NCBI GenBank assembly: GCA_937862865.1
Contig: CALMFJ010000073.1
Location: 1-48,709 of the forward strand
From: an uncultured Pseudomonadota bacterium
GTDB lineage: Bacteria > Desulfobacterota > Syntrophorhabdia > Syntrophorhabdales > Syntrophorhabdaceae
Direction: 5' to 3'
DNA: 48,709 bases
Shown here one piece after another: positions 3,378-31,903 of this stretch. Within the stretch, counting starts at the first letter, position 1, and each line of letters starts with the position of its first letter. The notes under the pieces were generated by a model, which had not been told where the DNA came from, made no database searches, and saw nothing but the letters and a program-made list of their open reading frames with translations. Made by a program: the position numbers and the translations under genes.

Positions 3378-4733
3378 CTGATCCGCATATTGATCATCGA
3401 CGACGAGGAGCAGCTCGTCGAGGCTTTCAGGAAAAAGCTCTCGCGTGACGGGTTCTCGGTAAGCTCCGCATACACGGCCCGGGAGGCACTCACCCTGATG
3501 AGGAAGCATACGTTCGACGTATGCGTCCTCGATATCAGGCTTCCCGATATGGACGGTGTCGATCTCCTGAAATCCATAAAGAAGAATGAGCCCAACCTCG
3601 AGATCATCATGCTCACGGGGCATGCCTCCGTCGATACGGCGATCCAGTCGATGAAGCTCGGGGCCTACGATTACCTGAGCAAGCCGTGCAAGTTGACCGA
3701 GCTTTCCAATGTCATTCAAAAGGCCTATGAAAAGAAATCCCTCAGGGAGCGTACCATCGTTCTCGAACAGCAGCTCCAGAGGGTGGAGGCGCACGATTCC
3801 TTTATCGGTTCCAGTGAGCCGATGAACGAGGTCAAAAGGCTCATACGGCTCGTTGCCCCATCGGACGTGCCGGTCCTTGTGCTGGGAGAGACGGGAACGG
3901 GCAAAGAGCTCGTCGCCCGGGCCATCCATGCCTTGAGCCCCCGCTCGGCGAACCAGTTTGTTGCCGTCAACTCGAGCGCCCTCCAGGAATCTCTCCTCGA
4001 AAGCGAGCTCTTCGGCTACAAGAAAGGGGCGTTTACCGGGGCGCAGTCCGACAAGATCGGTCTTCTCGAGCTGGCCGACAAAGGCACATTTTTCATCGAC
4101 GAGATCGGCGATATGGGCATGGCGATACAGGCAAAGTTTTTGAGGACGCTCGAGACAGGCATTTTCCGGCGGCTCGGCGATACCCGCGAATCAAAGGTCG
4201 ACGTCAGGTTCATATTCGCAACGAACAAGGCGCTGGAAAACGAAGTCAAGGAAAAGAGGTTTCGCAAAGACCTGTTCTTTCGCCTCAACACCTTTATCAT
4301 AACCCTGCCCCCGCTTCGCGAACGCAGGGACGACATCCCTCTCCTGGCTGACTATTTTCTCGGCAAATTCGCGCGCGGAGCGCCGAAGAAGCTCCTGTCC
4401 CGGGAAGCTATGGACATCCTGAGAAACTATCGCTGGCCCGGCAACGTGCGCGAGCTGGCGAATGTCATGGAGCGGGCGGTCCTGCTCAGCGCGGCCCGCG
4501 ATACGATCCTGTCCGAGGACATGCCCCAGAGCATGACGGACGGAAAGGCGACGGAGCGGGACCTTGACCGCCCGGGCCTCTCTCCCGACGAACTCACCCT
4601 GCACCGCATAGAGAGGGAACATATCGAGCGGGTCCTCAATCTTGCGAAGGGCAATAAGAGCAAGGCGGCGAGGATGCTCGGGATCTCACGGCGCAAGCTC
4701 TACCTCAAGACAACAGCAAACAGCAAAGAGTAA
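3378..4733 (+). CDS. Sigma-54-dependent response regulator (NtrC family)
   Basis: Receiver domain (1-115) with acidic pair DDEE, phospho-acceptor Asp52 in LDIRLPD and Lys102. The AAA+ domain has Walker A GETGTGKE (170-177), the sigma-54 contact loop GAFTGA (217-222) and Walker B FFIDEIGD. A Fis-type helix-turn-helix sits at the C-terminus (NKSKAARMLGISRRKLY). It should activate sigma-54 promoters such as those at 4904, 10932 and 21666. The start is odd: a strong AAAGGAGGGAGG at 3361-3372 points to CTG at 3378, giving (M)IRILIIDDEE, which matches MIKVLVVDDE of its paralogue at 18276-19622. The next start, TTG 3390, would remove the first beta strand. The final residues (TANSKE) and the stop codon lie inside a heptad repeat array. 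Confidence 0.9.
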   Translation: MIRILIIDDEEQLVEAFRKKLSRDGFSVSSAYTAREALTLMRKHTFDVCVLDIRLPDMDGVDLLKSIKKNEPNLEIIMLTGHASVDTAIQSMKLGAYDYLSKPCKLTELSNVIQKAYEKKSLRERTIVLEQQLQRVEAHDSFIGSSEPMNEVKRLIRLVAPSDVPVLVLGETGTGKELVARAIHALSPRSANQFVAVNSSALQESLLESELFGYKKGAFTGAQSDKIGLLELADKGTFFIDEIGDMGMAIQAKFLRTLETGIFRRLGDTRESKVDVRFIFATNKALENEVKEKRFRKDLFFRLNTFIITLPPLRERRDDIPLLADYFLGKFARGAPKKLLSREAMDILRNYRWPGNVRELANVMERAVLLSAARDTILSEDMPQSMTDGKATERDLDRPGLSPDELTLHRIEREHIERVLNLAKGNKSKAARMLGISRRKLYLKTTANSKE

Positions 4734-4801
4734 ACAGCAAACAGTAAACATCTGTGCGAATAAGTATTTTTTACCGTTCACTGCTTACCGTTCACCGCTT
4801 T
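4711..4801. repeat. Inverted array of 7-bp repeats, copy A
   Basis: The left arm holds five contiguous heptads at 4714-4748: CAGCAAA, CAGCAAA, GAGTAAA, CAGCAAA, CAGTAAA. The right arm at 4770-4797 holds four heptads in the opposite sense: TTTACCG, TTCACTG, CTTACCG, TTCACCG. About 20 bp separates the arms. RNA from either strand could fold into a long imperfect hairpin. The TAA stop of the upstream response regulator is inside the third heptad. The same architecture recurs at 7828-7887 and 31818-31903. Confidence 0.8.
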
Positions 4802-4903
4802 ATTGGTCTTTTTTTACACACACATGTATCAATTATGCACATTGCGGTGGTTCATTGTCGTATAGCACCTTGGATTACAGGGCGTTATAGAGTTGAACGG
4901 AGA

Positions 4904-4919
4904 TGGCATCAAAATTGCT
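4904..4919 (+). promoter_or_regulatory. Sigma-54 promoter of the TRAP operon
   Basis: TGGCATC-AAAA-TTGCT matches the -24/-12 consensus (TGGCACG-N4-TTGCA) with GG and GC at the required spacing. It lies about 40 bp before the dctP ATG. The site and its left flank (GAGATGGCATC) closely resemble the promoter at 10932, which suggests a shared regulon under the sigma-54 activators encoded nearby. Confidence 0.82.
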
Positions 4920-4957
4920 CGTTTTGGTTCGATAAATAATATTCAAGGGGGTTGTTT

Positions 4958-5974
4958 ATGAAACGGTCTGTGGTCGGTGTTTTTGTCGTGGTCTTTCTGG
5001 CGGCGACTTTTTGCCTTGTATCGGTTCCCGCAAACGCCCAGGTAAAACTTCGCTTTTCGACATTTTTCCCGGTGAGCCATCCCAACGCGCAGCTCACGGC
5101 AGACTGGTGCAAGGAAGTCGAGAAAAGGACCCAGGGCAAGGTAAAGGTGCAGCACTTCCCGGGCGCAACGCTGACGTCGCCGCAGCAGACGTACGACAGC
5201 ATCCTTTCCGGCGTCGTCGACCTTGGCAACTGTGTCCTCGGGTACACGATGGGCAAGTTCCCGCTCTCGGAGATACTGGATTATCCTCTCGGTTACCCGA
5301 GCGGGGTCGTGGCGACGAGGCTCGCGAACGAATTCTACAAACAGTTCAAGGCAAAAGAATTCGACGACGTCAAGGTGATGTTCTTCCATGCGCAGGGCCC
5401 GGGCATCCTCCACACGAGAAAGCCGGTGAAGTCCCTGGAAGACCTTAAGGGGATGAAGATACGGACATTCGGTTCGAATGCGAAAATGATGTCGATACTC
5501 GGCGCCGCTCCCGTTGCGATGCCGATGGGGGACGCGTACGACGCCCTGTCGAAAGGTGTGGCGGACGGCCTTCTGTGCGGGTACGAGGCATTGAAGGGCT
5601 GGAAACTGGGCGAGGTCGTCAAGTCGACGACGGAGAATTATGGCACGGCCTATACGGCCACGTTCGTCATTGCCATGAACAAGGCGAAATGGAAAAGCAT
5701 CCCTCCCGATGCGCAAAAGATTATCGAACAGATCAACCAGGAATTTATCGAAAAACAGGGCCAGCTCTGGGACAAGATGGATCAGGACGGCAAGGAGTTC
5801 TCCACCAGGAGGGGAAACCAGGTGATCAAGCTCTCCGCGCAGGAGAACGCGAAATGGGTGGCGAAGATCGAGCCCCTCTTCAACGAATACGTCAAGAAGA
5901 CCAGAGAGAAAAACCTTCCCGGAGACAAGGCGCTCAAATTTGTCCGGGAGTACATCAAAAAGAATACGAAATAG
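4958..5974 (+). CDS. dctP: TRAP transporter periplasmic solute-binding protein DctP
   Basis: This 338-residue exported protein captures a small carboxylate in the periplasm for the DctQM permease. It has a clear Sec signal (MKRSVVGVFV... cleaved near ANA-Q) followed by the DctP fold start VKLRFSTFFPVSHPNAQ. The family hallmark region LKGMKIRTFGSNAKMMSILG appears around residues 165-185; the Arg there normally binds the substrate carboxylate. ATG 4958 follows CAAGGGGG. The gene is first in dctPQM and is driven by the sigma-54 promoter at 4904. Acyl-CoA synthetases downstream suggest an organic or aromatic acid as substrate, but the substrate is not determined. Confidence 0.93.
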   Translation: MKRSVVGVFVVVFLAATFCLVSVPANAQVKLRFSTFFPVSHPNAQLTADWCKEVEKRTQGKVKVQHFPGATLTSPQQTYDSILSGVVDLGNCVLGYTMGKFPLSEILDYPLGYPSGVVATRLANEFYKQFKAKEFDDVKVMFFHAQGPGILHTRKPVKSLEDLKGMKIRTFGSNAKMMSILGAAPVAMPMGDAYDALSKGVADGLLCGYEALKGWKLGEVVKSTTENYGTAYTATFVIAMNKAKWKSIPPDAQKIIEQINQEFIEKQGQLWDKMDQDGKEFSTRRGNQVIKLSAQENAKWVAKIEPLFNEYVKKTREKNLPGDKALKFVREYIKKNTK

Positions 5975-5987
5975 CCCCCATATAATA

Positions 5988-6023
5988 CGCTGCCGGGGGG
6001 TCGTCTTTAGAGCCCCGGCAGCG
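5988..6023 (+). promoter_or_regulatory. Stem-loop between dctP and dctQ
   Basis: A perfect 11-bp stem (CGCTGCCGGGG / CCCCGGCAGCG) with a 14-nt loop and no T-run. It lies 14 bp after dctP and just before the dctQ ribosome site. Such hairpins often stabilise the upstream mRNA, which would allow more binding protein than permease. That role is an inference. Confidence 0.6.
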
Positions 6024-6042
6024 GCTCCAAAAGGAGGATCAC

Positions 6043-6531
6043 ATGGACGGCATGGTCGGGGCGATCAGGAAATTCTCAGGGTGGATGAACGGGCTGGCCG
6101 GCATCGTATTATTTCTTATGATGATGCTCACCGTGGTTGATGTCGCCCTTCGCATATTCTGGAAACCCATTACCGGGACATATGAACTTGTGGCAATGGC
6201 CGGGGCCGTGGTGATCGGGTTCGCCATTCCTCAGACGTCGTGGGACAACGCCCACATATTTGTCGATTTTCTGCTCGAGAACAGGTCACGGGCAGTCAAG
6301 ATAGCCTTCGGGTGTTTCAACCGGCTCATGGGGATAATCCTGTTCGTTTTGCTCGGTTCGTACCTTCTCATGAAGGCGAACCACCTTTTCAGAAGCGGGG
6401 ACGTGTCGCTCACGCTCCAGATCCCCTATTACCCCGTAGCGTATGGATTGGCATTCTGTGCGTTTGTGCAGGCGCTCGTGCTTATGCTCCATATGGCTAT
6501 CCTGTTCAAGAGTGGTGAAAACAATGGATGA
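6043..6531 (+). CDS. dctQ: TRAP transporter small membrane subunit DctQ
   Basis: A 162-residue protein with four hydrophobic helices, the expected size and topology for the small DctQ subunit. Recognisable stretches are LTVVDVALRIFWKPITGTYE (family: D-V-x-x-R-x-x-F-x-x-P-I-x-G-x-x-E) and IPQTSWDNAHIFVDFL. It forms the permease with DctM in the inner membrane. AAGGAGG precedes ATG 6043. Its end overlaps dctM by 8 bp, indicating coupled translation. Confidence 0.92.
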   Translation: MDGMVGAIRKFSGWMNGLAGIVLFLMMMLTVVDVALRIFWKPITGTYELVAMAGAVVIGFAIPQTSWDNAHIFVDFLLENRSRAVKIAFGCFNRLMGIILFVLLGSYLLMKANHLFRSGDVSLTLQIPYYPVAYGLAFCAFVQALVLMLHMAILFKSGENNG

Positions 6532-7825
6532 AATAACGGTTGGGATCGTAGCGGTCATCATTCTTATGGGGCTTTTCCTCACCGGGCTCGAGCTTGCCTT
6601 TGCCATGGCCCTTATGGGTGTGGCAGGCTATGCTTACGTGGTCGGGCCCGGACAGGCGCTTGCCATGCTCGCGAACGACTTTTACGATTCACTCGAATCG
6701 TACGGCCTCACCGTCGTGCCGCTCTTTGTCCTCATGGGGCAGATCGCGTTCAACGCAGGCATCGCAAAGCGCCTCTACGACAGCGCGCACAAGTTCCTGG
6801 GCCATATCCCCGGGGGCCTTGCCATGGCGACCGTGGCCGGCGCCACGGTGTTCAAGGCGTTGTGCGGGTCTATCGTCGCGACGAGCGCGACATTCGCAAG
6901 CGTTGCCGTCCCGGAGATGGACAGGTACAATTACAGCAAGAAGCTGTCAACCGGCATCGTGGCAACGGTCGGTACGCTCGGGGTCCTTATCCCGCCGAGC
7001 GTCACCCTGATCCTTCTCGGGCTCATCACGCAGCAGTCGATCGGGAAGCTCTTCATGGCAGGCCTCATCCCGGGCCTCATGATCTCATTCTTCTTCGCCC
7101 TTGTCATATTCGGCTGGGCGCGTATAAACCCGGCGATCGGGCCCAAGAGTGAGAAATACTCCTGGCCCGTGCGCGTGAGGACCCTTCCCGAGGTGATGTG
7201 GCCCCTGGTGATCTTTCTCATCATCATAGGCGGCTTGATGAACGGGTTCTTCACGCCGACCGAGGCAGGGTCGATCGGCACCTTTGCCGTGCTCGTGCTG
7301 TGCCTCGTGAAACGCGACATCGGGTTCCGCGGGATTTGCCAGTCGATCAGGGAGGCGCTGAGGACCTCCTGCATGGTCCTCGTGATCGTGGCCTCATCTA
7401 CCGTTCTCGGCCATTTCATAGCGGTCACGAACATTCCGAACGAGGTTGCGGCGTGGGTCATAAACCTGCCGCTGAACCGCCACCTGATAATGTCCCTTAT
7501 ATTTATCATCTACCTGATCGGCGGGTCTTTCATTGACGACCTTGCCTTTATGATCCTCGCGACCCCGATCTTCTACCCGGCCATCGTCGGCATGGGATAC
7601 GACCCGATCTGGGCGTGCATCATGATAGCGCTCACAGTGTGCGTGGGCTCCGTTATCCCGCCGGTCGCGATGTGCGTCTTCGTGGTAAAGAACATCACGA
7701 AAGTCCCGATGAACATCATCTACCAGGGGGTCTACCCTTTCCTGATCTCACTGATCCTGTGCGTTATTCTCCTCTTTATCTTCCCCGAGCTGACGCTCTA
7801 TCTGCCGGGGGTATTTATGAAGTAA
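6524..7825 (+). CDS. dctM: TRAP transporter large permease subunit DctM
   Basis: A 433-residue, very hydrophobic 12-helix-type protein of the DctM family, the ion-coupled channel subunit. Family features are the N-terminal MDEITVGIVAVIILMGLFLT segment, SATFASVAVPEM, IPPSVTLILLGLIT and PTEAGSIGTFAVL, and a late GSFIDDLAFMILATPIFYP. The frame is open further upstream, but ATG 6524 inside the end of dctQ (8-bp overlap) gives the normal N-terminus. The stop abuts the heptad repeat array at 7828. Together with dctPQ it makes a complete TRAP system. Confidence 0.93.
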   Translation: MDEITVGIVAVIILMGLFLTGLELAFAMALMGVAGYAYVVGPGQALAMLANDFYDSLESYGLTVVPLFVLMGQIAFNAGIAKRLYDSAHKFLGHIPGGLAMATVAGATVFKALCGSIVATSATFASVAVPEMDRYNYSKKLSTGIVATVGTLGVLIPPSVTLILLGLITQQSIGKLFMAGLIPGLMISFFFALVIFGWARINPAIGPKSEKYSWPVRVRTLPEVMWPLVIFLIIIGGLMNGFFTPTEAGSIGTFAVLVLCLVKRDIGFRGICQSIREALRTSCMVLVIVASSTVLGHFIAVTNIPNEVAAWVINLPLNRHLIMSLIFIIYLIGGSFIDDLAFMILATPIFYPAIVGMGYDPIWACIMIALTVCVGSVIPPVAMCVFVVKNITKVPMNIIYQGVYPFLISLILCVILLFIFPELTLYLPGVFMK

Positions 7826-7827
7826 AC

Positions 7828-7887
7828 GGGGCAATGGGCAAGAGGAGGGCCTTTCCCCCATCGCCTGTAGCCCATCGCCTGTAGCCC
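7828..7887. repeat. Inverted array of 7-bp repeats, copy B
   Basis: Left arm: GGGCAAT, GGGCAAG (7829-7842). Right arm: CCCATCG, CCTGTAG, CCCATCG, CCTGTAG (7857-7884) followed by CCCGCGA. The right arm is nearly the same as that of copy C (CCTATCG/CCCGTAG alternating). It begins three bases after the dctM stop, and AGTAAAC spanning the stop already resembles the copy A heptads. It lies between the TRAP operon and acyl-CoA synthetase 1. Confidence 0.78.
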
Positions 7888-7936
7888 GCGATTCAAATCT
7901 TGTTTTTATCACCATTAACTTCAGGAGGACTCTTGA

Positions 7937-9514
7937 ATGGGCCACAATAATGATTTCCAGACCGTAAGGACGCTCATCGACCGCAATGCGGCGCTGTATC
8001 CGGCGAAGATGGCTATGAAGGAATTTGAGACGGGCAGGAGCTGCACGTTCGCCGGGCTCAAGGAACGTGCCGTGAAGATCGGCAGCGCCCTTTTTGCGCT
8101 CGGGGCGAAAAAGGGCGACAGGGTGGGCATCATGGGCCAGAACAGCTTTGAGTACATGGAGCTGACGCTGGCCGTGAGCGCTGCGGGGTTTATATTCGTT
8201 CCCGTGAATTTCCGGCTGGCGGGCCGGGAGATGGCAGGCGTCCTGTCCGATGCGGAACCCTGCGTCCTGTTCGTCGATGACCAGTATGCAGCCACCGCAC
8301 AGGAGATAAAAAGCGAGATCCCTTCCGTGCGGGAATGGGTCCACATAGGGCCCGGGGCGAATAGGCCGGAAGGCTGGCACGGCTATGAGGACGTGGTACG
8401 GGGGGCCGGGCCGGACGGCTGGAAAGAGCCGGTCTTCGACGACGACCTTGCCCAGCTCATGTATACAAGCGGGACAACAGGGGCGCCGAAGGGCGTTATG
8501 CAGACGCATCTCAACATGTACCACTGCGGCCGCACCTGCGCCTTCAACAACCGTGTCGAAACAGATGACATCGGTTTCACGATATGCCCGATGTACCACG
8601 TCACGTCGTCGACGTCGTTTTTCGGTCCTTTCTACCGGGGGGCCTCGAGCGTGCTGTTCCAGAGATTCGACCCCGACGGCCTGTTCAGGGCCGCCCACGA
8701 GGAAAAGCTCGTAGCGGGGATGCTTGCGACGCCCATGGTGCGGATGCTGCTCGATGTGTGGCCGTCCGTGAAAGACCGGTACGACGTGTCGAGCATGAAC
8801 AAGCTCTGGTTCGCGGGGGCGGGGATCATCCCGGCCGTTTACAAGCAGTTCATCGACACGTTCGGATGCATCCTTGGCGAGCATCACGGCACGACGGAAA
8901 CGACAGGCGTGACCGCCAATCTCTCGGCGGCGGACATCGCAAGGGAACTGACCGATGACCTCAGGATACTCGAATCGTGCGGCAGGGATGCGTACGACTG
9001 CGAGGTGTGCATCGTCGACGACAACGACAACCCCGTGGCCGCCCCGGGGGAAGGCGAGATGAAGGTCCGGGGCCTCGGCACGTCCGCCGGGTACTGGCGC
9101 AAGGAGGAGCAGACAAAAAAGGCCTTCCGGAACGGTTGGTTCTACACGGAAGACATCTGCCACATCGACAGGAAGGGGTACATCTACATCATTGACCGCA
9201 AGAAGGACATGATCATCACGGGCGGGGAGAACGTCTACCCCGCGGAGATCGAGAAGGTCGTCAACGAGCACCCGGCCGTGCGCGAGTCATCGGCCATCGG
9301 CGTCCCGCACCCGGTGTGGGGGGAGGCGATAGTCGCGATCGTCGTTCTCAACGAAGGCGCTGTGGTGGATGCCGAAGGACTGATCAAGTACTGCAAAGGC
9401 AAGATAGCCGGGTACAAGGTGCCGAAGATCGTCCATTTTATCCAGGAGATGCCCCGGAACCCGGCCGGCAAGATATCGAAACCGGAGCTCAGGAAGCAAT
9501 TCGCGTCATCGTGA
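7937..9514 (+). CDS. Acyl-CoA synthetase 1 (AMP-forming)
   Basis: A 525-residue adenylate-forming ligase that should activate a carboxylic acid to its CoA thioester at the cost of ATP to AMP. It shows the phosphate-binding loop YTSGTTGAPKG (about 176-186), GEHHGTTETTG (A5), GWFYTEDI (A7), DRKKDMIITGGENVYPAEIE (A8) and the C-terminal PRNPAGKISK with the catalytic Lys (A10). CAGGAGG precedes ATG 7937. It is followed 40 bp later by an acyl-CoA dehydrogenase. A close paralogue lies at 10984-12564: both open with a TLIDRNA segment. The acid used cannot be read from sequence; fatty or alicyclic/aromatic acids are possible. Confidence 0.9.
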   Translation: MGHNNDFQTVRTLIDRNAALYPAKMAMKEFETGRSCTFAGLKERAVKIGSALFALGAKKGDRVGIMGQNSFEYMELTLAVSAAGFIFVPVNFRLAGREMAGVLSDAEPCVLFVDDQYAATAQEIKSEIPSVREWVHIGPGANRPEGWHGYEDVVRGAGPDGWKEPVFDDDLAQLMYTSGTTGAPKGVMQTHLNMYHCGRTCAFNNRVETDDIGFTICPMYHVTSSTSFFGPFYRGASSVLFQRFDPDGLFRAAHEEKLVAGMLATPMVRMLLDVWPSVKDRYDVSSMNKLWFAGAGIIPAVYKQFIDTFGCILGEHHGTTETTGVTANLSAADIARELTDDLRILESCGRDAYDCEVCIVDDNDNPVAAPGEGEMKVRGLGTSAGYWRKEEQTKKAFRNGWFYTEDICHIDRKGYIYIIDRKKDMIITGGENVYPAEIEKVVNEHPAVRESSAIGVPHPVWGEAIVAIVVLNEGAVVDAEGLIKYCKGKIAGYKVPKIVHFIQEMPRNPAGKISKPELRKQFASS

Positions 9515-9554
9515 CGGAAGGGGGCAGCGTTCCGAATAGCGTACGGAGGACCTC

Positions 9555-10700
9555 ATGGAATTGACAACGGAACAGAAGGACATTGTAAGTGCCGCTCGCG
9601 AATTTGCAGAAAAAGAGTTCAGGGACAGGGCGAAGGAGTTTGACGAGAAAGAGGAGTTCGACCTTTCCATTGTAAGGAGGGCGGCAGAGAACGGCTTCGT
9701 CGGCGTATTCATCAAGGAGGAGTACGGCGGGGCGGGCCTCGGTTTCCTCGAGCACTCGCTCATTACGGAGCAAATGTGGAGGGTCGATCCCGGCTGCGGG
9801 CAGAACATCTGCTCGGCCAGTTTCGGCGCCGAGATGATACAGGCATTCGGCACCGAAGGGCAAAAGCAGTTTTACCTGCCAAAGATAATCTCCGGCGAGG
9901 TCATCATCGGGACAGCGATAACCGAGCCTGACGCGGGAAGCGATGTGACGCTCGTGAAGACCCGGGCCGAGAAAAGAGGGGACCGCTACGTCATCAACGG
10001 TTCCAAAATGTTCATCACGAACGGGTGCACCGCGAAGTACCTGCTCGTCTATGCCGTGACGGACCCGGACGTGAAGGATGTCCATAAACGGTGCAGCATT
10101 GTCCTTCTCGACACGGCAACGGCCGGGTTCGCGGCGACCAGGATACACGGCAAGATGGGCATCAGGGCGTCAAACACCGCCGAGATAGCCTTCAGCGATG
10201 TCGAGGTCCCGGCGGAGAACCTTATCGGGCAGGAAGGCCGCGGCTTTTACCAGCTCATGGATTTTTTCAATATGACGCGCAATCATGTGGCCGCTCAGGG
10301 GGTCGGCGTCGCGCAGGGCGCGCTCGAGATGGCGATATCACACGTGAAGAAAAGGAAGGCGTTCGGCGGGACCCTGTCGAAGCTCCAGGGGGTGCAGTTC
10401 AAGATAGCGGAGATGGCGACCCGCATCGAGGCCGCGAGGGCCCTGTACTGGCGGGCGGCATACCTGCTCGACAACGGCAGGCTCGACCCGGCCCTTGTCT
10501 CGATGGCGAAATGGTTCGCCGGGGAGACCGCGGTCTATGTTGCAAACGAATCGCTCCAGCTCCACGGCGGCTACGGGTACATAGCCGAATACGATATCCA
10601 GAGATTCTACCGCGACGCCAAGATCATCGAGATCTACGAAGGGTCGAAAGAGGTGGAGAAGGCTGTCATCGCGAGCGAACTCTTGCGAAGAATATATTAA
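9555..10700 (+). CDS. Acyl-CoA dehydrogenase 1
   Basis: A 381-residue FAD enzyme that should introduce a 2,3 double bond into an acyl-CoA and pass electrons to an electron-transfer flavoprotein, probably the EtfBA encoded at 22837-24536. Seen: TEPDAGSDV (family T-E-P-x-A-G-S-D), the FAD-contact region RKAFGGTLSKLQGVQFKIAE, LHGGYGYIAEY, and IYEGSKEVEK with Glu362 at the usual catalytic-base position. GGAGG precedes ATG 9555. It forms a pair with acyl-CoA synthetase 1, and a paralogue lies at 14527. A perfect hairpin follows at 10741. Confidence 0.92.
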   Translation: MELTTEQKDIVSAAREFAEKEFRDRAKEFDEKEEFDLSIVRRAAENGFVGVFIKEEYGGAGLGFLEHSLITEQMWRVDPGCGQNICSASFGAEMIQAFGTEGQKQFYLPKIISGEVIIGTAITEPDAGSDVTLVKTRAEKRGDRYVINGSKMFITNGCTAKYLLVYAVTDPDVKDVHKRCSIVLLDTATAGFAATRIHGKMGIRASNTAEIAFSDVEVPAENLIGQEGRGFYQLMDFFNMTRNHVAAQGVGVAQGALEMAISHVKKRKAFGGTLSKLQGVQFKIAEMATRIEAARALYWRAAYLLDNGRLDPALVSMAKWFAGETAVYVANESLQLHGGYGYIAEYDIQRFYRDAKIIEIYEGSKEVEKAVIASELLRRIY

Positions 10701-10740
10701 AAAACACGCAATATCCCGGACATCCGGGAATACTCCCGCC

Positions 10741-22835: not shown

Positions 22836-22836
22836 A

Positions 22837-24536: not shown

Positions 24537-25840
24537 TGGACCATAGCGATAAAAATGTGCTTGTCGTGGGCGGAGGGATCGGCGGGATAACCGCCGCCCT
24601 CGAGCTCGCCTCGTGCGGCATTAAAGTAACAATGCTCGAGTCCGGCCCGTCTATCGGCGGCAGGATGATCCAGCTTGACAAGACATTCCCGACGCTCGAC
24701 TGCTCGACATGCACGCTGTCACCGAAAATGGTGGAGGTTGCCCTCAACCACAACATCGACCTCATGAGCGTGTCGCAGATAACGCACATGACACGCAAAG
24801 GCCCGGGGTTTTTGGTCGGGATAAAGAAGAATCCCCGCTACGTCGATCAGGATAAGTGCACCGCCTGCGGGTCCTGCGCCGAGGCCTGTGTGATGAAAGG
24901 CAGGGTGCCGCACGAATTCAACATGCTGCTCGGGAAGAGGGCGGCGATCTATATACCCTTTCCCCAGGCCATACCCCAGAAATACCTCGTCGATCCGGAA
25001 AGGTGCCTCTTCGTTTCCCGGGGCAAGTGCAAGAAGGCCTGCATGGACGCGTGCGAAACGGGCGCGATCAATTTCGATGACACGGGCGAAGAGTTCGAAA
25101 TGTATTTCGACAGCATCGTTCTCGCTCCCGGCTTCGACGTCTATGACCCGACCGAGAAGCAGGAGCTGGGCTACGGGACCCTGCCCGGGGTCGTGACGGG
25201 CCTCGAATTCGAAAGGATCTGCTCGGTCACCGGACCGACGGCCGGGGACATACTTCTCGACGGGAAAGAACCGAAACGCTTTTACTTTATCCAGTGCGTC
25301 GGCTCGCGGGACCGTCAGAGCGGCGCGCGGTACTGCTCGCGCGTCTGCTGCATGTACACGGCGAAGCATGCGTGCATCGTCCGGGAACGGATAAAAGACG
25401 CCGAGATCTACATATCCTATATCGACGTCAGGGCGTACGGTAAGGGGTACGACGAGTTCTACAAGACGACGCAGGAGAACGGGGCCCTGTACATCAGGGG
25501 CATTCCCGGAGAGGTTGTGGAAGGTGACGGATGTCTCATTGTTCGGGTTGAAGACATGCTGTCGGGGGAGATGCGGGAGATAGAGGCGGACATGGTCGTC
25601 CTTGCGACGGGTGTACGGCCGCGCAAAACGACCGGCGTGTTATGCGACATTTTATCTATCGATCGCGATGAATACGGCTTCATCAAGGTGGATGCGGTCA
25701 CGCCGTCGCTGACGAATGCTGACGGCATCTTTGTGTGCGGCATGGGTTCGGGCCCGAAGGACGTTCCCGACACCGTCGCCTCGGGAGGAGAAGCCGCGTC
25801 GCGCTGCATGGAATATATAGCGAAGGGTGCCGGTTCATGA
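24536..25840 (+). CDS. HdrA/QmoA-like flavin Fe-S protein 1
   Basis: 434 residues. An N-terminal FAD-binding fold (VVGGGIGGITAALELASCGI) is followed by the HdrA-type pair C56-STC59 in DCSTCTLSPKM, a 4Fe-4S motif Cys108/111/114/118 and a further set Cys157/165/169/173. Later comes the conserved CVGSRD ... YCSRVCCMYTAKHA region. The length and lack of the HdrA N-terminal and C-terminal ferredoxin parts make it most like QmoA of the Qmo complex. It is coupled to etfA (1-bp overlap) and to the next hdrA-like gene (4-bp overlap). Likely a subunit that passes electrons between flavin and Fe-S clusters in a soluble complex. Confidence 0.85.
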   Translation: MDHSDKNVLVVGGGIGGITAALELASCGIKVTMLESGPSIGGRMIQLDKTFPTLDCSTCTLSPKMVEVALNHNIDLMSVSQITHMTRKGPGFLVGIKKNPRYVDQDKCTACGSCAEACVMKGRVPHEFNMLLGKRAAIYIPFPQAIPQKYLVDPERCLFVSRGKCKKACMDACETGAINFDDTGEEFEMYFDSIVLAPGFDVYDPTEKQELGYGTLPGVVTGLEFERICSVTGPTAGDILLDGKEPKRFYFIQCVGSRDRQSGARYCSRVCCMYTAKHACIVRERIKDAEIYISYIDVRAYGKGYDEFYKTTQENGALYIRGIPGEVVEGDGCLIVRVEDMLSGEMREIEADMVVLATGVRPRKTTGVLCDILSIDRDEYGFIKVDAVTPSLTNADGIFVCGMGSGPKDVPDTVASGGEAASRCMEYIAKGAGS

Positions 25841-27510
25841 AAATAGGAGTATTTATCTGCCATTGCGGGCACAATATCAAGCATACGGTCGACGTCGAGA
25901 CGTTGGCCGAATATTTCAGGAAATACCCGCATGTTGCCGTGTCCGATGATTACCCGTTCCTGTGTTCCGAGCCGGGGCAGAATATGATAACGGACAGCAT
26001 CGAGCAGCATGGCCTCGACCGGGTGATCGTCGCCTCGTGCGCCCCTTCCCTGCATGGCGAACTTTTCAAGGACCTTTTAAGGAAAAAGGGAGTGAACCCC
26101 TTCCTCCTGCGCCGTGTCAGCATCCGGGAACATTGCAGCTGGGTCGGCGACGACGTCGAAGAGAACACGGAGAAGGCGAAACGCCTTATTCTGTCGGGGC
26201 TCTACGGCTCCGCGCATTACGTTCCCCTGGAAGAGAAGCAGGTCGAGGTCAACAAATCCGCCCTTATCCTCGGCGGCGGCGTTTCGGGCCTCAGTGCCGC
26301 GCTTTTTCTCTCCAATATGGGAATGCAGGTCTATCTCGTCGAACAGGCGGCCGAACTTGGCGGTCGCGTCCGGGAACTCAAAAGCGTATGGCCTTCACGC
26401 AAGGCGGGGGCCGATATAATCGCCGGGATGGAAAATGAGCTCAGGGGCCGCGATAATGCCGCGGTCTTCACCTCGTCGAAGCTTTCGAATTTCGAAGGTT
26501 TTTTCGGGAACTACCAGGCGACCGTCGCTACCCCGGACGGCGAAGAAAGGTTCGCGGTGGGAGGGGTGGTCGTCGCTATAGGCTTCGAACCGTTCGACCC
26601 GCAGATAAAGCCGGAACTCTTCTACGGCAGGGACCCGCGTATCGTGACGACCCTCGATCTCGAGCGGTCGGGTGACGGCCTCAAGCTTCCCGACAACCCC
26701 CGGGTAGCGGTCCTCCATTGCGTGGGGTCGAGGGACGAGCAGATCGGCAGGCCGTACTGCTCGCGCATATGCTGCATCAATGCCCTTCGGGCCGCGGAAG
26801 CCGTCAAGGAGAGGTTCGACGGTTCCTACGTGGAATCTTTTTATATGGACATGCGCGCCCACCCGCGGGGAGGTGAGGAATTTTTCGAGGATACGCAGGA
26901 AAAGGGCGTTCTCTTCACGCGCGGCAATATCGCGGAGATCGTGCCCGAGCCGCAGGGCATCGTGGTTCGCGGCGAGGATACCCTGTTCGGGGAGGTCTTT
27001 GAACGCGAGTTTGACCTCGTGGTCCTGTCCATTGGGATGTCGGCGCCGGCCACGGGCAAAGAGGTGGCCAACCTTCTCAAGATCAGCCTCGACAAGGACA
27101 ACTTCTTCCTCGAGGCGCATATCAAGCTGCGCCCTTTCGATACGGCCGTGAAAGGCATCTTCATAGCGGGCTCCTGTTCGGGCCCCAAGGATGTCGAGGA
27201 ATCGATAAACCACGGCAGGGCGTCGGCCCTCAAGCTTTACGGTTTTCTCAATCTCGGGTATGCGTTCGTCGATCCGTTCATCTCGGTCGTCGACCCGAAG
27301 CGGTGCAGCGGATGCCGGGTGTGCGAGCAGGCGTGCGTGGCCAGGGCGATCAAGTTCGACGAGGAAAAGCATATCGCGCACGTCGAAGAGGCGGCCTGCA
27401 TGGGATGCGGATTGTGCAACGCTACGTGCCCGTCATCCGCGATCAGCCTGAGGGGATATGTGGATACGGTCATCGCGGATGAAATAAGCGGCCTTCTGGA
27501 GGCAATGTGA
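25837..27510 (+). CDS. hdrA: HdrA-like flavin Fe-S protein 2 (QmoB-like)
   Basis: 557 residues starting MKIGVFICHCGHNI, the standard HdrA N-terminus, with VASCAPSLHGELF. An FAD fold follows (LILGGGVSGLSAALFLSNMG, near 147), then LHCVGSRDEQIGRPYCSRIC, and two C-terminal 4Fe-4S motifs (RCSGCRVCEQAC and CMGCGLCNATC). The cysteine insert found after the FAD site in HdrA1 is absent, so the two proteins are complementary. ATG 25837 overlaps the previous stop by 4 bp. With the separate MvhD gene next to it, the pair looks like a split QmoB (HdrA fused to MvhD). Likely the flavin centre of an Hdr-type complex. Confidence 0.87.
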   Translation: MKIGVFICHCGHNIKHTVDVETLAEYFRKYPHVAVSDDYPFLCSEPGQNMITDSIEQHGLDRVIVASCAPSLHGELFKDLLRKKGVNPFLLRRVSIREHCSWVGDDVEENTEKAKRLILSGLYGSAHYVPLEEKQVEVNKSALILGGGVSGLSAALFLSNMGMQVYLVEQAAELGGRVRELKSVWPSRKAGADIIAGMENELRGRDNAAVFTSSKLSNFEGFFGNYQATVATPDGEERFAVGGVVVAIGFEPFDPQIKPELFYGRDPRIVTTLDLERSGDGLKLPDNPRVAVLHCVGSRDEQIGRPYCSRICCINALRAAEAVKERFDGSYVESFYMDMRAHPRGGEEFFEDTQEKGVLFTRGNIAEIVPEPQGIVVRGEDTLFGEVFEREFDLVVLSIGMSAPATGKEVANLLKISLDKDNFFLEAHIKLRPFDTAVKGIFIAGSCSGPKDVEESINHGRASALKLYGFLNLGYAFVDPFISVVDPKRCSGCRVCEQACVARAIKFDEEKHIAHVEEAACMGCGLCNATCPSSAISLRGYVDTVIADEISGLLEAM

Positions 27511-27529
27511 CTTTAGCGGCAGAGGTATT

Positions 27530-27940
27530 ATGATGGAAGAAAAGATCGAAAAAAACCCTGAGATCGTCGGGTTCGCCTGTTCGTACTGCACGTTCAAGGC
27601 ATCGGAGATGGCGGGAAGCCTGAGGATGAAGTATCCCGAGGGGGTCAAACTCATCCAGGTCCCCTGCTCGAGCAGGGTCGACCCGGCGTTCGTCATAAAG
27701 GCAATTCTGGAGGGCGCCGACGGGGTTTTTGTCGCGGGGTGCCACCCGGGCGACTGCCATTTCATAAAAGGCAATTTTTTCACGCGCAGGAAAATCGCGG
27801 CCCTCAAGGAGATGCTCGACGCCTTCGGAATGAAGGACAGGCTCCGTTTATTCTGGGTAAGCGCCGCCGAGGCGCGGCGTTTCATCGAAAAGGTCACGGG
27901 AATGTACAACGAGATAAAGGAAAAGAAAAATGGTGGGTAA
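27530..27940 (+). CDS. mvhD: MvhD/FlpD-like 2Fe-2S delta subunit
   Basis: 136 residues. The family core is plain: FACSYCTFKASEMAGSLRMK, VPCSSRVDP and GADGVFVAGCHPGDCHF. MvhD carries a 2Fe-2S cluster and moves electrons between a hydrogenase or formate dehydrogenase and HdrA. No catalytic hydrogenase or formate dehydrogenase subunit is encoded in the window. A second ATG lies three bases after the first (27530/27533). The last 11 bp overlap the next gene. Confidence 0.9.
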   Translation: MMEEKIEKNPEIVGFACSYCTFKASEMAGSLRMKYPEGVKLIQVPCSSRVDPAFVIKAILEGADGVFVAGCHPGDCHFIKGNFFTRRKIAALKEMLDAFGMKDRLRLFWVSAAEARRFIEKVTGMYNEIKEKKNGG

Positions 27941-28931
27941 GAAGGTCACGAACGGTCAGATCGAAAGTGCGCTCAACACGTTTCTCGCCGCCGGCGATTG
28001 CCTTGTCCTGGGTTTCGAGAAAGACGGCACGGCAATGCGCCACCGGGTTTTCAAGAACACACTCGAGAACATGTCGGTTACCAACCATATCTTTGCCCTG
28101 AACGGGGGAATTTACCTGCGGCGCCTTTTTTCGAAGGGCGCGAAGATAATCCTTCTGCTTCGGCCATGCGAGATACGGTCGTACGTGGAACTGGTAAAAC
28201 TCTCCCAGATCGAGGCGGAGAACATCATCGCAGTGTCGGTCGACTGTTCCGGGACGATATCGTCAAAAGCGGACGATGTCCCGGTGGACGGGGGATATGA
28301 TGTCCTGTCACAGGACCCGGGCAGGGCGCGCTTTGCGTGCGCCAACTGCCGCGAGAGAAGGGGCGTCGTCGGCGATGCGGGGATACGGCGGGATGTGAAC
28401 GGCCAATACTGGGTGCTGCCCTACACGGAAAAGGGCGGCACGTTCCTTGCGCTTATCGAAGGCCCCGAAGAGGAAGTGAGCGCGCACATGGCGGTCCCGG
28501 CGGCCGGGAAAGGGGCCGTTTTCCAGGTCGATATGGCCGAATTTGCAAAGGACTTCTCCAGGTGCATCATGTGCATGAACTGCAGGGACATGTGCCCGGT
28601 CTGTTACTGCGTCGATTGTGTTTTTAACGGGGACGATTATCTGCCGAAGGGTGATGCGCTTTTCAACAAGATCTTCCGGACCGGCTCGACCGAGATGCCG
28701 CGCGGCAGGGACCTGTTCCACCTCATCAGGATGTACCACGTGTCGCAGACGTGCGTCGGGTGCGGCGCCTGCGAGGAGGCCTGCCCCCAGGGCATACCCC
28801 TTACGAAATACTTCAAAGGCGTATCGGAGAGGCTTCAGGGAATGTTTGCATACATGTCCGGGCGAAGCCCCGAAGAACCTCTGCCGTTCGTCACATTTCT
28901 TGAGGATGAATTGAAAGATGCCGCAGATTGA
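27930..28931 (+). CDS. FdhB/FrhB-like dicluster Fe-S protein
   Basis: 333 residues. The N-terminal 200 residues resemble the beta subunits of F420-hydrogenase and formate dehydrogenase (GAKIILLLRPCEIRSYVELV, then AVSVDC). Two cysteine-rich sets follow: CIMCMNCRDMCPVCYC (from about 212) and CVGCGACEEACPQG (from about 275), indicating two 4Fe-4S clusters. In related operons such proteins connect a formate dehydrogenase or NAD(P)H module to Hdr/MvhD. Here it has no catalytic partner next to it. It overlaps mvhD by 11 bp and hdrC by 14 bp, so it is firmly part of the operon. The exact electron donor or acceptor is unknown. Confidence 0.78.
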   Translation: MVGKKVTNGQIESALNTFLAAGDCLVLGFEKDGTAMRHRVFKNTLENMSVTNHIFALNGGIYLRRLFSKGAKIILLLRPCEIRSYVELVKLSQIEAENIIAVSVDCSGTISSKADDVPVDGGYDVLSQDPGRARFACANCRERRGVVGDAGIRRDVNGQYWVLPYTEKGGTFLALIEGPEEEVSAHMAVPAAGKGAVFQVDMAEFAKDFSRCIMCMNCRDMCPVCYCVDCVFNGDDYLPKGDALFNKIFRTGSTEMPRGRDLFHLIRMYHVSQTCVGCGACEEACPQGIPLTKYFKGVSERLQGMFAYMSGRSPEEPLPFVTFLEDELKDAAD

Positions 28932-29376
28932 TCACGCCATAGAATTGACTGATTACAGGAGGCAGGATTTTTCCGTGTGCCTCGGATGCAAGATCTGTGC
29001 GTCCGTGTGCACGGTCAATGACATTACGGGGAACACAAATCCCCAGGACATGCTCCAGAGGATATTCCTCGGCAAAGATATATCGGCCGATGAGCCGCTC
29101 GTCAGGTCCTGTACGGGGTGTTACCGGTGTACCGGGGCCTGCCCGTGGGAGATACGGATACCGGATGTCATCCGGGCGCTGCGTCATGAGCTAAATGTCG
29201 AATCACCGTTCGAAAAGGCATTCAAGGGATCGGTCTCGCTCTTCGGCAGGGTTTATGAGCCGTATGTCCTGATGAAAGCGGTGCCTTTTCTCATCAGGGG
29301 CGGATACATGCAGCATGTAACGCGATGGATGGAATACATGGGATTTCACCTGCCGCACAGGGTCAAAAGGACATAA
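28918..29376 (+). CDS. hdrC: Heterodisulfide reductase subunit C-like protein
   Basis: 152 residues with two 4Fe-4S motifs, CLGCKICASVCTVND (from about 21) and CTGCYRCTGACPWEIRIPDV, in the HdrC spacing. HdrC passes electrons between HdrA and HdrB. The C-terminal part (FKGSVSLFGRVYEPYVLMKA) lacks clear membrane helices, so it should be soluble, unlike QmoC. It overlaps the previous gene by 14 bp and is 1 bp from hdrB. Confidence 0.88.
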   Translation: MPQIDHAIELTDYRRQDFSVCLGCKICASVCTVNDITGNTNPQDMLQRIFLGKDISADEPLVRSCTGCYRCTGACPWEIRIPDVIRALRHELNVESPFEKAFKGSVSLFGRVYEPYVLMKAVPFLIRGGYMQHVTRWMEYMGFHLPHRVKRT

Positions 29377-29377
29377 G

Positions 29378-30058
29378 ATGGAATACGGTTATTATCCCGG
29401 CTGTTCGCTTACCGGGTCGGCACGCAAGCTTGATAAGGGCATACGGCAGATATTTGCCAGGGCAGGGCACACGATGAAAGAGATCCCGGATTGGAACTGC
29501 TGCGGCGCATTCGAGTACGGCGACCGGAAGGAACTGGTCAATTTCTCGAAGAAGAACCTCGAAAAGGCACGGGGGCATTTTCATGATATCGTTACACCGT
29601 GCCCGGCGTGCTATAAGAACCTCAAAGAGGCGGACGAGGCGTACGAGTTCGGCGTCATTCACCCGCTCGATGTCTTCGACGAGTCATTTTTCCAATGGAC
29701 GAAGCAGGCGCGGGACCTTGCAGGGCAGGTCTTCACCCCCTATTACGGGTGCATCCTGCTGCGCCCGAAGGAGACCGCGATACGCAACAAGACCATCATG
29801 GAAGAAACGATCGTCCGGTTTGGCGGCGAGGTCGCCGGAGAGGCGGCAAAGGACCGCTGCTGCGGCGGGAACCAGATATTCATCGATAAATCCGTTACCG
29901 AGAAGCTTTCCCGCATCATCCTGGAGAAGTCGAGGGGGACGCTCGTCGTGTTCTGTCCCCTGTGCCACATGGCGCTGAAAACCTTTTCGGGGGAACGGAA
30001 GGTCATCTATTTCACGGACCTCCTCCTTTATATTATGGGAGAGAAGGGCGCATTATGA
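29378..30058 (+). CDS. hdrB: Heterodisulfide reductase subunit B-like protein (short)
   Basis: 226 residues with both CCG domains: YYPGCSLTGSA, DWNCCGAFEYG and TPCPACYKN in the first; PYYGCILLRP, DRCCGGNQIF and VFCPLCHMAL in the second. HdrB holds the noncubane clusters that reduce disulfides in methanogens; in bacteria the substrate is usually unknown. At 226 residues it is shorter than archaeal HdrB (about 290), mostly in the region between the domains. The stop overlaps the next start by 4 bp. It is a second CCG protein in the operon, in addition to the fused HdrC/B at 21741. Confidence 0.88.
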   Translation: MEYGYYPGCSLTGSARKLDKGIRQIFARAGHTMKEIPDWNCCGAFEYGDRKELVNFSKKNLEKARGHFHDIVTPCPACYKNLKEADEAYEFGVIHPLDVFDESFFQWTKQARDLAGQVFTPYYGCILLRPKETAIRNKTIMEETIVRFGGEVAGEAAKDRCCGGNQIFIDKSVTEKLSRIILEKSRGTLVVFCPLCHMALKTFSGERKVIYFTDLLLYIMGEKGAL

Positions 30059-31839
30059 ACGTTCTGATAATTGGCGGAGGCATAAGCGGGGTATCGGCGG
30101 CCAAGGTCGTCCTGAAGGAGGGGCACAGCGCGGTCATACTCGAGAGCACCCCCGAACTCGGCGGGACGATGGCGCGCATCGCCAATTGCCGCATCGGGTT
30201 CAAGACATTCTATGACGAGATAAAGGACGACCCTCGCCTTCGCGTTGTCAGGGGCGCCTCTATCGCGGATGTGAAAAAGGCCGGGGACGGGTTTTCCGTG
30301 ACGCTCACGAATGGTGAAGCCTCAGGCTTCGACAGGGTCATCGTGGCCGCCGGCCTTTCGCCCTATGACCCCGTGGAATACAAGGGGAAACGGGTCCTGA
30401 CGAGCCTCGAATATGACGCGAAGATCGACCAGCGCAACGGTGAACTGCCGGAGGATTTCGAAAAGATAGGGTTTTTCCTCTGCGTCGGCTCGCGGTCGAA
30501 GGAATACCCGCTGTGTTCGTCTGTGTGCTGTTCATACACGATACGCGAGGTCAAGTGGACGCTCCAGCGCGCGAAGCCGGAGATAGCCGTATTTTACAAC
30601 GACCTGCGCCTCTTCGGGCAGGAATTTTACCTCGAGAAGATCTACCGTGACGCCGGCGTCCGTTTTGTCCGGGCGAATTCCCGCTACTTTGAGGAAGATG
30701 AGACCGGCGTCACGGTCCGCTACTTCGTCGACGGGGAATTGAAGGAAGAGCGGTTCAACTATGTCGTCCTCGCCATAGGCCTGCGCCCGAACCCGGGCAT
30801 GAAGGACCTGGGCGCCCTGTTCGGTTTCTCCGTCAACGAGTACGGGTTCGCCGCGGAAAGGTCCCCGCTCGCAACCGATGCCGACGGTGTGTTCGCGTGC
30901 GGCGGGGCCCTTGAGCCCATGAATATCAAGGATTCCATCCTGACAGGCTTCGGCGCCGGCGTGCTGGCCGTCCGTGACGCCGAGGCCCTCATCGCCGAGG
31001 GCCGGGATCAGGGCCTCTTGCGGGATGAAGACCCCCCGGGGATAACGATGCCGCAGGGCACTTTTTCGTCCTGCGCCTTTTATCTCGGCACCGACGACCC
31101 CGGTGAAGCAATGTTCTACGAATACATGTCCGCGCGCTTCATCGAGGCGGCACGGACATTGAACGAGGCCGGAAAGACCGTGTATGTCGTAACGAAGAAC
31201 ATCGTGATGCCGTCGTACGACGAGGTGACCTTTGAAAAGGCCCGCCGGGAAGGGGTCGTCATCATCAACCTCGAGGAAAACCAGTCCTTTGTTCCCCAAA
31301 ACGGCGGTTTCGCGGTCACGGGCGGGGGAAAGGACCTTGCTTTCGACGCTGACCACATCATTTATTTCAAGGATTATGCCGGCAGTTTCGCGGGACGCGA
31401 ATTTCTTTCCGTCCATCGTTCGGAGCCCCAGCTTCGCTGGAACCCGACGCGCTGGAGCCGCAAAAAATATCACGTCGGGTTTCTGCGCCATCCGCGCGAT
31501 AAACGCTGGAAGCCGCGCGAGATCTTAGGCGCTGTGGGTGAGATCATTCTCGACAGGGAAGAAGAGCGCCTTTACCCGACGATAGAGGAAGAGCGATGCA
31601 GCGGCTGCGGTTCGTGCATGGATGCCTGCCCCCAGAAGGCCATAGAAATAAAAGTCGCCGATACAGAGGTTTCGGTCTTTGGCCCGATAAGCAATACCGG
31701 CATCCCGAAAGCGCACATAAATGAAGACTCCTGCGTGGCCTGCGGCCTGTGCGCATCCACCTGCCCGTCAGACGTGATAAAACTGCCGGAACAGGAACAG
31801 AAGATACCGAACTGTACGGCAATAGACAATAGGCGATAG
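30055..31839 (+). CDS. HdrA-like flavin Fe-S protein 3 with extra middle region
   Basis: 594 residues. FAD site IIGGGISGVSAAKVVLKEGH at the N-terminus, LCVGSRSKEYPLCSSVCCSY in the middle and two C-terminal 4Fe-4S motifs (CSGCGSCMDAC near 515, CVACGLCASTC near 561). Residues of about 335-500 form an additional segment (TFSSCAFYLGTDDPGEAM onward) seen in some HdrA-related proteins; I do not know its role. It lacks the HdrA N-terminal domain. ATG 30055 is inside the end of hdrB (4-bp overlap). The last seven residues (TAIDNRR) and the TAG stop are encoded by heptad repeats, so the natural C-terminus may have been replaced. Confidence 0.84.
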   Translation: MNVLIIGGGISGVSAAKVVLKEGHSAVILESTPELGGTMARIANCRIGFKTFYDEIKDDPRLRVVRGASIADVKKAGDGFSVTLTNGEASGFDRVIVAAGLSPYDPVEYKGKRVLTSLEYDAKIDQRNGELPEDFEKIGFFLCVGSRSKEYPLCSSVCCSYTIREVKWTLQRAKPEIAVFYNDLRLFGQEFYLEKIYRDAGVRFVRANSRYFEEDETGVTVRYFVDGELKEERFNYVVLAIGLRPNPGMKDLGALFGFSVNEYGFAAERSPLATDADGVFACGGALEPMNIKDSILTGFGAGVLAVRDAEALIAEGRDQGLLRDEDPPGITMPQGTFSSCAFYLGTDDPGEAMFYEYMSARFIEAARTLNEAGKTVYVVTKNIVMPSYDEVTFEKARREGVVIINLEENQSFVPQNGGFAVTGGGKDLAFDADHIIYFKDYAGSFAGREFLSVHRSEPQLRWNPTRWSRKKYHVGFLRHPRDKRWKPREILGAVGEIILDREEERLYPTIEEERCSGCGSCMDACPQKAIEIKVADTEVSVFGPISNTGIPKAHINEDSCVACGLCASTCPSDVIKLPEQEQKIPNCTAIDNRR

Positions 31840-31903
31840 GCCAGCCAGGGGCAATGGGAAAAGAAAAGGCCCCTATCGCCCGTAGCCTATCGCCCGTAGC
31901 CCG
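31818..31903. repeat. Inverted array of 7-bp repeats, copy C
   Basis: Left arm: GGCAATA, GACAATA, GGCGATA (31818-31838), GGCCAGC, then GGGCAAT, GGGAAAA (31849-31862). Right arm: CCTATCG, CCCGTAG, CCTATCG, CCCGTAG (31872-31899). The right arm is almost the same as copy B. The TAG stop of the upstream gene is formed at the end of the third heptad. The array separates the Hdr/Etf operon from the glycerate kinase gene. Confidence 0.8.

Follow-up and report, generated by a model that had tools for sequence, protein, structure and literature searches.

The 48,709-nucleotide (nt) window analyzed here (contig CALMFJ010000073.1 of assembly GCA_937862865.1, from an uncultured bacterium that GTDB places in the Syntrophorhabdaceae) contains three arrays of degenerate 7-nt repeats, A, B and C, each consisting of an arm of heptads in one orientation, a spacer and an arm in the opposite orientation. 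Judged from sequence, these arrays are probably copies of a dispersed, bidirectional 3'-end hairpin element, acting as a terminator or as an mRNA 3'-end element, with fast turnover of its repeats. Several repeat types, or dialects (RGGCNAY, GAACGYR, AACGGCN and others), occur side by side in the genome, and our data suggest that the hairpin at the gene end matters more than its particular sequence. We computed the layout, polarity, position, folding and T-rich flank directly, as well as the replacement of one repeat type by another at some orthologous sites. A previous reading of the window (the original prediction) had reported the three arrays, and all three are present where it placed them.

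The arrays are abundant genome-wide. Searching the whole genome with GGGCRATRGGCRATRGGC (RGGCNAY, up to two mismatches) gave 163 + 189 overlapping matches against 2 + 1 for the reversed pattern, and GAACGYRGAACGYRGAACG (GAACGYR) gave 242 + 222 against 1 + 0. A scan of 417,641 bp for self-similarity at lags of 4 to 35 returned 51 segments at lag 7, 34 at lag 14 and 9 at lag 21, with at most 4 at any other lag; a Markov-simulated copy of this sequence contained a single lag-7 segment, compared with 68 in the real sequence at the same threshold. Arms of at least three units numbered 189 in real and 37 in reversed sequence, and arms of at least four units 124 and 8. A permissive scan for two-unit arms (487 matches, with 466 to 496 in reversed sequence) was dropped. 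Loci were called in a sample of 755,186 bp, comprising the window and 40 further stretches and covering about 29% of the 2.64-Mb genome; the sampled contigs were picked from the genome-wide list of repeat matches, so array density may be inflated. We called 98 loci, a few of them false, from arms of at least three units plus two-unit partners, the latter accepted only in the same dialect, on the opposite strand and within 120 bp. Some calls are also overwide, as for array C of the window, which was fused with chance two-unit matches into 31734-31961. Adding two-unit partners favors pairing; the count of neighboring arms given below does not include them.

The arrays lie preferentially at gene 3' ends. 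Based on a simple, purpose-written codon-usage gene finder (706 genes, 91% coding), 52 of the 98 loci fall between codirectional genes, 24 between convergent and 10 between divergent genes, with 5 inside predicted genes and 7 at edges; the corresponding numbers for all intergenic gaps are 495, 85 and 85, and for gaps of at least 80 bp 161, 37 and 73, the arrays themselves lengthening the gaps. Between codirectional genes, 44 of 52 arrays have their start in the interval −25 to +10 nt relative to the stop of the upstream gene (median +2.5), and 18 overlap that stop, one of them by 106 nt, perhaps because of a miscalled gene. Between convergent genes, both ends lie −26 to +16 nt from the two stops in 20 of 24 cases, the array filling the gap between them. 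The genome scan that the original prediction had proposed, for an excess of arrays and a preference for 3' ends, thus revealed both.

Arm polarity is strongly ordered. Among 69 pairs of neighboring arms (at least three units each, within 300 bp), 60 consist of two facing arms of one dialect, 8 point in the same direction, 1 is of mixed dialect and none stands back to back within a dialect, with a chance expectation for same-dialect neighbors of 37%. The facing pairs comprise 35 of RGGCNAY, 17 of GAACGYR, 4 of GTRAACR/AACAGYR, 3 of AACGGCN and 1 of GTRAGGA, and for arms of at least four units 39 of 40 neighboring pairs face. With the looser partners there are 72 facing pairs, separated by spacers of 0 to 121 nt, and RGGCNAY arms face in 47 cases versus 5 back to back. 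Within a locus, both arms are of the same dialect. Single-direction loci make up only 19 of 91, and their polarity relative to the nearest stop was not clear (among those near a stop, 7 as expected and 4 opposite).

Arms are mostly 32 to 34 nt long, with modes of 34 nt for RGGCNAY and 32 to 33 nt for GAACGYR, and arm ends are phase-locked (66 of 103 and 39 of 47). RGGCNAY arms most often hold four complete units (47 of 88); GAACGYR arms, counting those of at least three units only, most often hold three (26 of 31), with partial units at both ends. Medians of 31, 35 and 31 nt for 7-, 9- and 8-nt units, the last from n = 9 with a wide spread, are only suggestive of an arm length in nucleotides that is constant across unit sizes. 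In 415 RGGCNAY units, the GG after the purine and the A are fixed at 97 to 99%, the first base is split almost evenly between A and G (A in 220), and the fifth is A, G or T, C being rare (16 units); these arms were found by consensus (six of seven matches per unit), which inflates the fixed positions and leaves the spread at the free position unaffected. Adjacent units are no more alike than units of different arms (0.067 versus 0.079 in RGGCNAY, 0.20 versus 0.23 in GAACGYR), while the smaller AACGGCN set shows a slight excess of similarity over chance (8 of 42, 0.19 versus 0.134). Units two apart (14 bp) are more similar than expected in this genome, an excess that persists when different rules are used (lag-2 identity of 0.213 versus 0.127 in within-arm shuffles) and that was not clear in 80 loci from other phyla. 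Complementarity between the two arms of one locus does not exceed that between arms of different loci, for RGGCNAY (n = 31; p = 0.08 for matches, 0.46 for duplex energy) or for GAACGYR (n = 17; p = 0.91 and 0.87). Since adjacent units are mostly not more alike and arms within a locus are not specially complementary, units behave almost as if drawn independently from a dialect common to the whole genome. Outside the arms, the adjoining 10 nt are rich in A (39 to 60% A, depending on the set), and such A-rich caps are common to dialects of different unit length. The motif A[AG]AC stands at the outer end of 29 of 89 RGGCNAY and 16 of 53 GAACGYR arms, whereas the inner end has it in 7 arms of each set and random positions in 4%; its frequency at the outer end ranges from 1 of 7 to 9 of 9 in other sets from the genus, and it is weak in the 80 loci from other phyla (35 of 205 outer versus 27 of 205 inner ends).

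The 72 paired arrays have a median folding energy of −44 kcal/mol and a median z score of −5.5 (40 dinucleotide shuffles each), with 64 of 72 below −2; strong folding is seen in G-rich and non-G dialects alike (z of −5.05 and −7.75, respectively). With 44 of 52 codirectional arrays near the upstream stop, these inverted pairs place a stable predicted RNA hairpin just past the stop codon, as in an intrinsic terminator. Read in the direction of the upstream gene, the 3' flank of codirectional arrays contains 45% T, compared with 25% in intergenic sequence, but only 18 of 52 have at least five T in the 8 nt after the array, versus 6.4% of intergenic 8-mers. A terminator-like role, among those put forward in the original prediction, would fit.

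Of five repeat patterns counted, at least one exceeds its reversed control in each of the 12 genomes of the genus, and the spectra differ by species; two mismatches were allowed in these counts, so low values are partly background. RGGCNAY gives 352 matches here and 3 to 24 in the other genomes, and GAACGYR 464 here, 39 in G004, 21 in G009 and at most 10 elsewhere. The 9-mer GCTTGAAYS has no match here and up to 333 in G006, GTRAGRC has 171 in G004 and 32 here, and GGTNATR has 44 to 476 across the genus, with reversed controls of up to 72. G002, which is 98% complete, holds 320 matches of the 9-mer (control 3) and 260 of GGTNATR (control 52). Arms of the 9-mer also face each other, in 10 of 10 cases in G006 and 6 of 9 in G002. 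G004 further contains two long single-direction arrays of GTAAGGC type (L082:22-100 and L084:7113-7262, about 11 and about 21 units), which, unlike the short facing arms, have no inverted partner in the merged segment.

For 18 called loci in four stretches we sought the orthologous sites, and both flanks were found for 15 in G009 and 10 in G004. The gap shows 7- to 9-nt periodicity at 8 of the 15 sites and 4 of the 10, respectively; by eye, 4 of these 8 and 2 of these 4 are clearly in another dialect, and the rest in the same dialect or a near variant. Some sub-threshold gaps still hold short inverted arms, again by eye. At L035:10129, the array is of GGGCGAT type here, GTAAGTC in G009 and a related type in G004, so that the dialect differs in both relatives, and the aligned flanks stop no more than 2 nt short of the arms. 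G004 lacks the 134-bp array that stands between convergent genes at L104:9584, its aligned flanks being four bases apart; inspection of this one clean empty site by eye revealed no target duplication. The original prediction had suggested that architecture rather than sequence is kept, and this is supported beyond the window: several dialects of one genome have the same facing polarity, the two best sampled also share arm length and an A-rich outer flank, the arrays as a class sit at stop codons, and some orthologous sites of relatives are in other dialects.

The features of the three window arrays are as follows.
Array A, left arm: 4712..4750, + strand, AACAGYR-type heptads; holds the stop TAA (4731-4733) of the upstream gene.
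Gene upstream of array A: open reading frame (ORF) 3390-4733, a response regulator with sigma-54 interaction and Fis-type domains.
Array A, spacer: 4751..4767, no strand.
Array A, right arm: 4768..4797, − strand; the reverse complement reads as GTGAACR / AACGGTA-type heptads. After the arm comes CTTTATTGGTCTTTTTTT.
Array B, left arm: 7829..7845, + strand, RGGCNAY type, about two units; 3 nt past the stop TAA (7823-7825) of a DctM-family gene.
Array B, right arm: 7857..7888, − strand, RGGCNAY type, about four units forming a repeated 14-bp doublet.
Array C, left arm: 31817..31844, + strand, RGGCNAY type; holds the stop TAG (31837-31839) of the upstream gene, which encodes pyridine-nucleotide oxidoreductase and 4Fe-4S domains.
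Array C, spacer: 31845..31871, no strand, with an extra GGGGCAATGGG segment facing CCCC at the start of the right arm.
Array C, right arm: 31872..31905, − strand, RGGCNAY type, about four units forming a repeated 14-bp doublet.

Comparing the window with itself at lags of 3 to 24, we found 28-nt stretches with at least 22 self-matches at two lags only, 7 in array A and 14 in both A and B; array C lies below this threshold and was detected by Tandem Repeats Finder with periods of 7 and 14. The arrays had been described as intergenic, which holds for B, whereas the left arms of A and C supply the last codons and the stop of the upstream gene. The encoded protein ends read ...TTANSKE* (A) and ...AIDNRR* (C), the array having replaced the last codons of both genes, whose orthologs end differently (in G009 and, for C, also G004). 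The facing plan ascribed to all three is borne out. The left arm of B has just two clear units, and B and C belong to one dialect, A alone being distinct. Codirectional genes flank each array, with gaps of 224, 111 and 85 nt for A, B and C, and their assignment to operon ends is not established. In relatives, site A is without periodic arms in G009 and G011, and site B carries GTAAGGA, GGTAATG and CAGGTYT types (all by eye); site C has no periodic arms in G009 and G004 and 9-mers in G005 and G006, where only the left flank is alignable. At site B of G006 (L073:8870-9173), a left arm of 9-nt units and a right arm of 7-nt units stand about 230 bp apart, apparently in two dialects. Separately, the genome contains a dispersed hairpin repeat of about 40 bp (CCCGG...CCGGGATGACGGG type; L042:4928-4965), with similar copies in L045, L103, L037, L091 and others; G009 and G004 contain additional partial matches.

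Outside the genus, at least 107 stretches with the inverted RGGC layout turned up in a scan, spread over several phyla. Among the matches listed are metagenome-assembled genomes (MAGs) deposited as Deltaproteobacteria, Nitrospirae, Verrucomicrobia, Burkholderiales, Betaproteobacteria, Planctomycetota and others, and the named organisms Herpetosiphon geysericola and Geobacter sp. AOG1. Again among the matches listed, at least one outer end lies −30 to +15 nt from the stop of an ORF of at least 80 codons on the proper strand in 84 of 114 arrays, compared with 598 of 3420 random boxes of the same length (17.5%); a first look at 80 of the stretches had given 61 of 85 arrays versus 18.8%. Lag 7 dominates the listed stretches (265, versus at most 33 at lags that are not multiples of 7), as expected from how they were selected. 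C is rare at the free position of RGGCNAY there too (32 of 639 units). The right arm of one inverted RGGC array, in the Verrucomicrobia MAG SZAS-18 (L113:7884-7999), consists of about ten near-identical units.

Published relatives exist, and the arrays described here are a variant of that kind. The original prediction knew of no named family, but inverted GGGAATC heptads have already been reported from Xanthomonas (Rehm et al. 2015, PMC4692102): according to that account they are degenerate, number 183 to 186 sites per genome with 70 to 75 inverted pairs in convergent orientation, are mostly intergenic and nearer the 5' neighboring gene, prefer four units and stand at the same place in two species in 83% of cases. 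Our arrays resemble these G-rich Xanthomonas and Nostoc heptads in forming inverted, mostly intergenic pairs of about four units. The mixed heptad form is given there as GGGNATC (abstract) and as (GGGANTN)n (results); if the latter, its first free base corresponds to the free-base position of RGGCNAY. In contrast, the units here are RGGCNAY, GAACGYR and others rather than GGGNATC or GGGGA(C/T)T, and uninterrupted three-G tracts are not kept (A comes first in 220 of 415 units, and GAACGYR has none); as presented, that study treats one G-rich type per genome, whereas several dialects, some without G-tracts, coexist here. Units of 8 and 9 nt in relatives, dialect change at some orthologous sites and overlap with stop codons are further differences. 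The P6b stem-loop of the Nostoc tRNA-Leu intron (PMC3488679) is described as containing degenerate heptanucleotide repeats of Class 1 and Class 2, and is similar in that degenerate heptads pair into one hairpin, with alternative motif classes at the same site; it is a single tRNA-intron site, however, and not an element dispersed over gene ends. DNA uptake signal sequences in pairs, proposed as terminators (TransTermHP paper, PMC1852404), are likewise inverted short motifs enriched between convergent genes, with an A-tail and a T-tail, but in that account there is one fixed motif per species (a 10-mer in Neisseria) in two copies, without tandem arrays, instead of several dialects per genome. 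TAACTGA repeats of Beggiatoaceae, Cyanobacteria and Bacteroidetes (MacGregor 2015, PMC4679880) are also tandem, intergenic heptads of patchy distribution across phyla, but are reported as almost only direct, near-invariant and, in the genome studied, mostly located a short way 5' of start codons. Heptanucleotide units also predominate in long simple sequence repeats (Mrazek et al. 2007, cited in PMC4679880 and PMC4692102); the citing accounts present these as slippage-type tandems, without an inverted plan or gene-end placement. A literature search that left out most subscription journals yielded no description of dialect replacement at orthologous sites, and of six dialect strings searched one turned up, in a single unrelated yeast paper.

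We considered whether the arrays could be passive tandem repeats, replication slippage generating the 7-nt repeats in noncoding DNA and template switching in hairpins the inverted copies, with no function. Among longer simple repeats, heptads form the most frequent class, for which a polymerase-contact explanation has been proposed (Mrazek et al., via PMC4679880 and PMC4692102), and the 14-bp excess and the AACGGCN neighbors noted above are in keeping with slippage. However, neighbors are not more alike in the two large sets, the GG and A of RGGCNAY are nearly fixed (the six-of-seven rule inflating this) while two positions are near random, arm ends are phase-locked, and the resemblance between the arms of a locus that template switching predicts was not found; we consider this explanation unlikely. 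A G-quadruplex, as proposed for the Xanthomonas and Nostoc heptads, where the preference for four units was tied to four G-tracts, would suit RGGCNAY, whose arms have a G-tract at each 7-nt step and most often four complete units, and is highly improbable for the family: the frequent A at the first position breaks the three-G tract, GAACGYR lacks G-tracts yet has a similar modal arm length and obeys the same facing rule (17 of 20 same-dialect neighbors), and arms of the 9-mer face too.

An element of the repetitive extragenic palindrome (REP) or bacterial interspersed mosaic element (BIME) kind, or a retroelement, with units placed by a dedicated transposase (REP-associated tyrosine transposase, RAYT) or reverse transcriptase, would account for the one clean presence/absence of a whole arm-spacer-arm unit and for dialects that are distributed patchily and recur in different phyla. 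One Y1_Tnp match is present in this genome (G000:C92:27541-27864, in L223; open frame of 333 aa), and eight other genus members have matches in frames of 290 to 371 aa. We nevertheless regard such an origin as doubtful, as G002, with hundreds of repeat matches, has no PF01797 match at an E value of 0.001, G007 (74% complete) also lacks one, PF00078 matches only 1 of the 12 genus genomes and not this one, and the empty site shows no evident target duplication. In these searches, which covered PF01797 and PF00078 and no other mobility enzymes, neither family tracks the arrays; the mobile element proposed originally is not established, with one clean presence/absence and no mover found. Another hypothesis is a signal code in which a trans-acting protein or RNA recognizes each dialect, in the manner of DNA uptake signals, inverted gene-end placement being secondary. 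The fixed and free positions do resemble a recognition motif, with C rare at the free position in other phyla too, arms are interchangeable between loci, and dialect spectra are species-specific. A single reader, however, would need neither several dialects in one genome nor A-rich caps common to dialects of different unit length, and single-direction loci are few; we think a signal code improbable.

The bidirectional 3'-end hairpin is the function best supported by placement, layout and indifference to dialect. Each array would be one copy of a dispersed, roughly symmetrical element, in which an A-rich cap (with an AGAC or AAAC end in about one-third of arms), an arm of degenerate 7-nt units and an A-rich inner end are followed by a variable spacer and then the mirror image with a T-rich end. 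RNA of either strand could form a strong hairpin at the stop codon, and because of this and its position, the element most likely ends or protects transcripts and may serve both genes at convergent sites. RNA termination or stabilization, and hairpin formation as what selection keeps, are what we infer. Unit sequence would then be a genome-level dialect, spread among loci and replaced over time by a copying process, candidates for which are ectopic conversion and movement of whole arm-spacer-arm units.

Several observations weigh against this interpretation. Strong folding is partly built in, as the 72 pairs were picked as inverted same-dialect pairs; 34 of 52 codirectional arrays lack five T in the following 8 nt; and the spacers of several convergent arrays contain, by eye, an ordinary hairpin and T-run, so that the terminator may lie between the arms instead of being formed by them. 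Ten loci lie between divergent genes, and the array missing from G004 at L104:9584 is dispensable at that convergent site. Only 8 of 15 and 4 of 10 comparable sites reach the periodicity threshold, half of these keep the same dialect or a near variant (4 of 8 and 2 of 4), some are just single arms, and the arms at site B of G006 differ in unit length. As arms of the same locus are not better matched, selection for pairing locus by locus fails to explain the fixed unit positions, and a 3'-end hairpin explains neither the 7-nt units, nor the fixed positions, nor the spread of dialects, which point to a genome-wide copying or reading process. We therefore also entertain, as a tentative and rather speculative possibility, that a horizontally shared trans-acting machinery writes a degenerate, position-specific heptad code into gene 3' ends in several phyla, building or recopying inverted arms at stop codons in a few dialects per genome and rewriting old arrays at the same sites.

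Heptad repeats are known from unrelated bacteria without an agreed function, and the present data separate their architecture from their sequence. The facing of arms is common to dialects with and without G-tracts and to unit lengths of 7 to 9 nt, and arm length too is alike in the two dialects sampled best, which argues against both a quadruplex and simple slippage. The change of dialect at kept sites, together with the interchangeability of arms between loci, calls for a genome-wide copying process of a kind that the cited papers do not describe, and the separation of architecture from sequence makes a possible role of the arrays as 3'-end hairpins directly testable.

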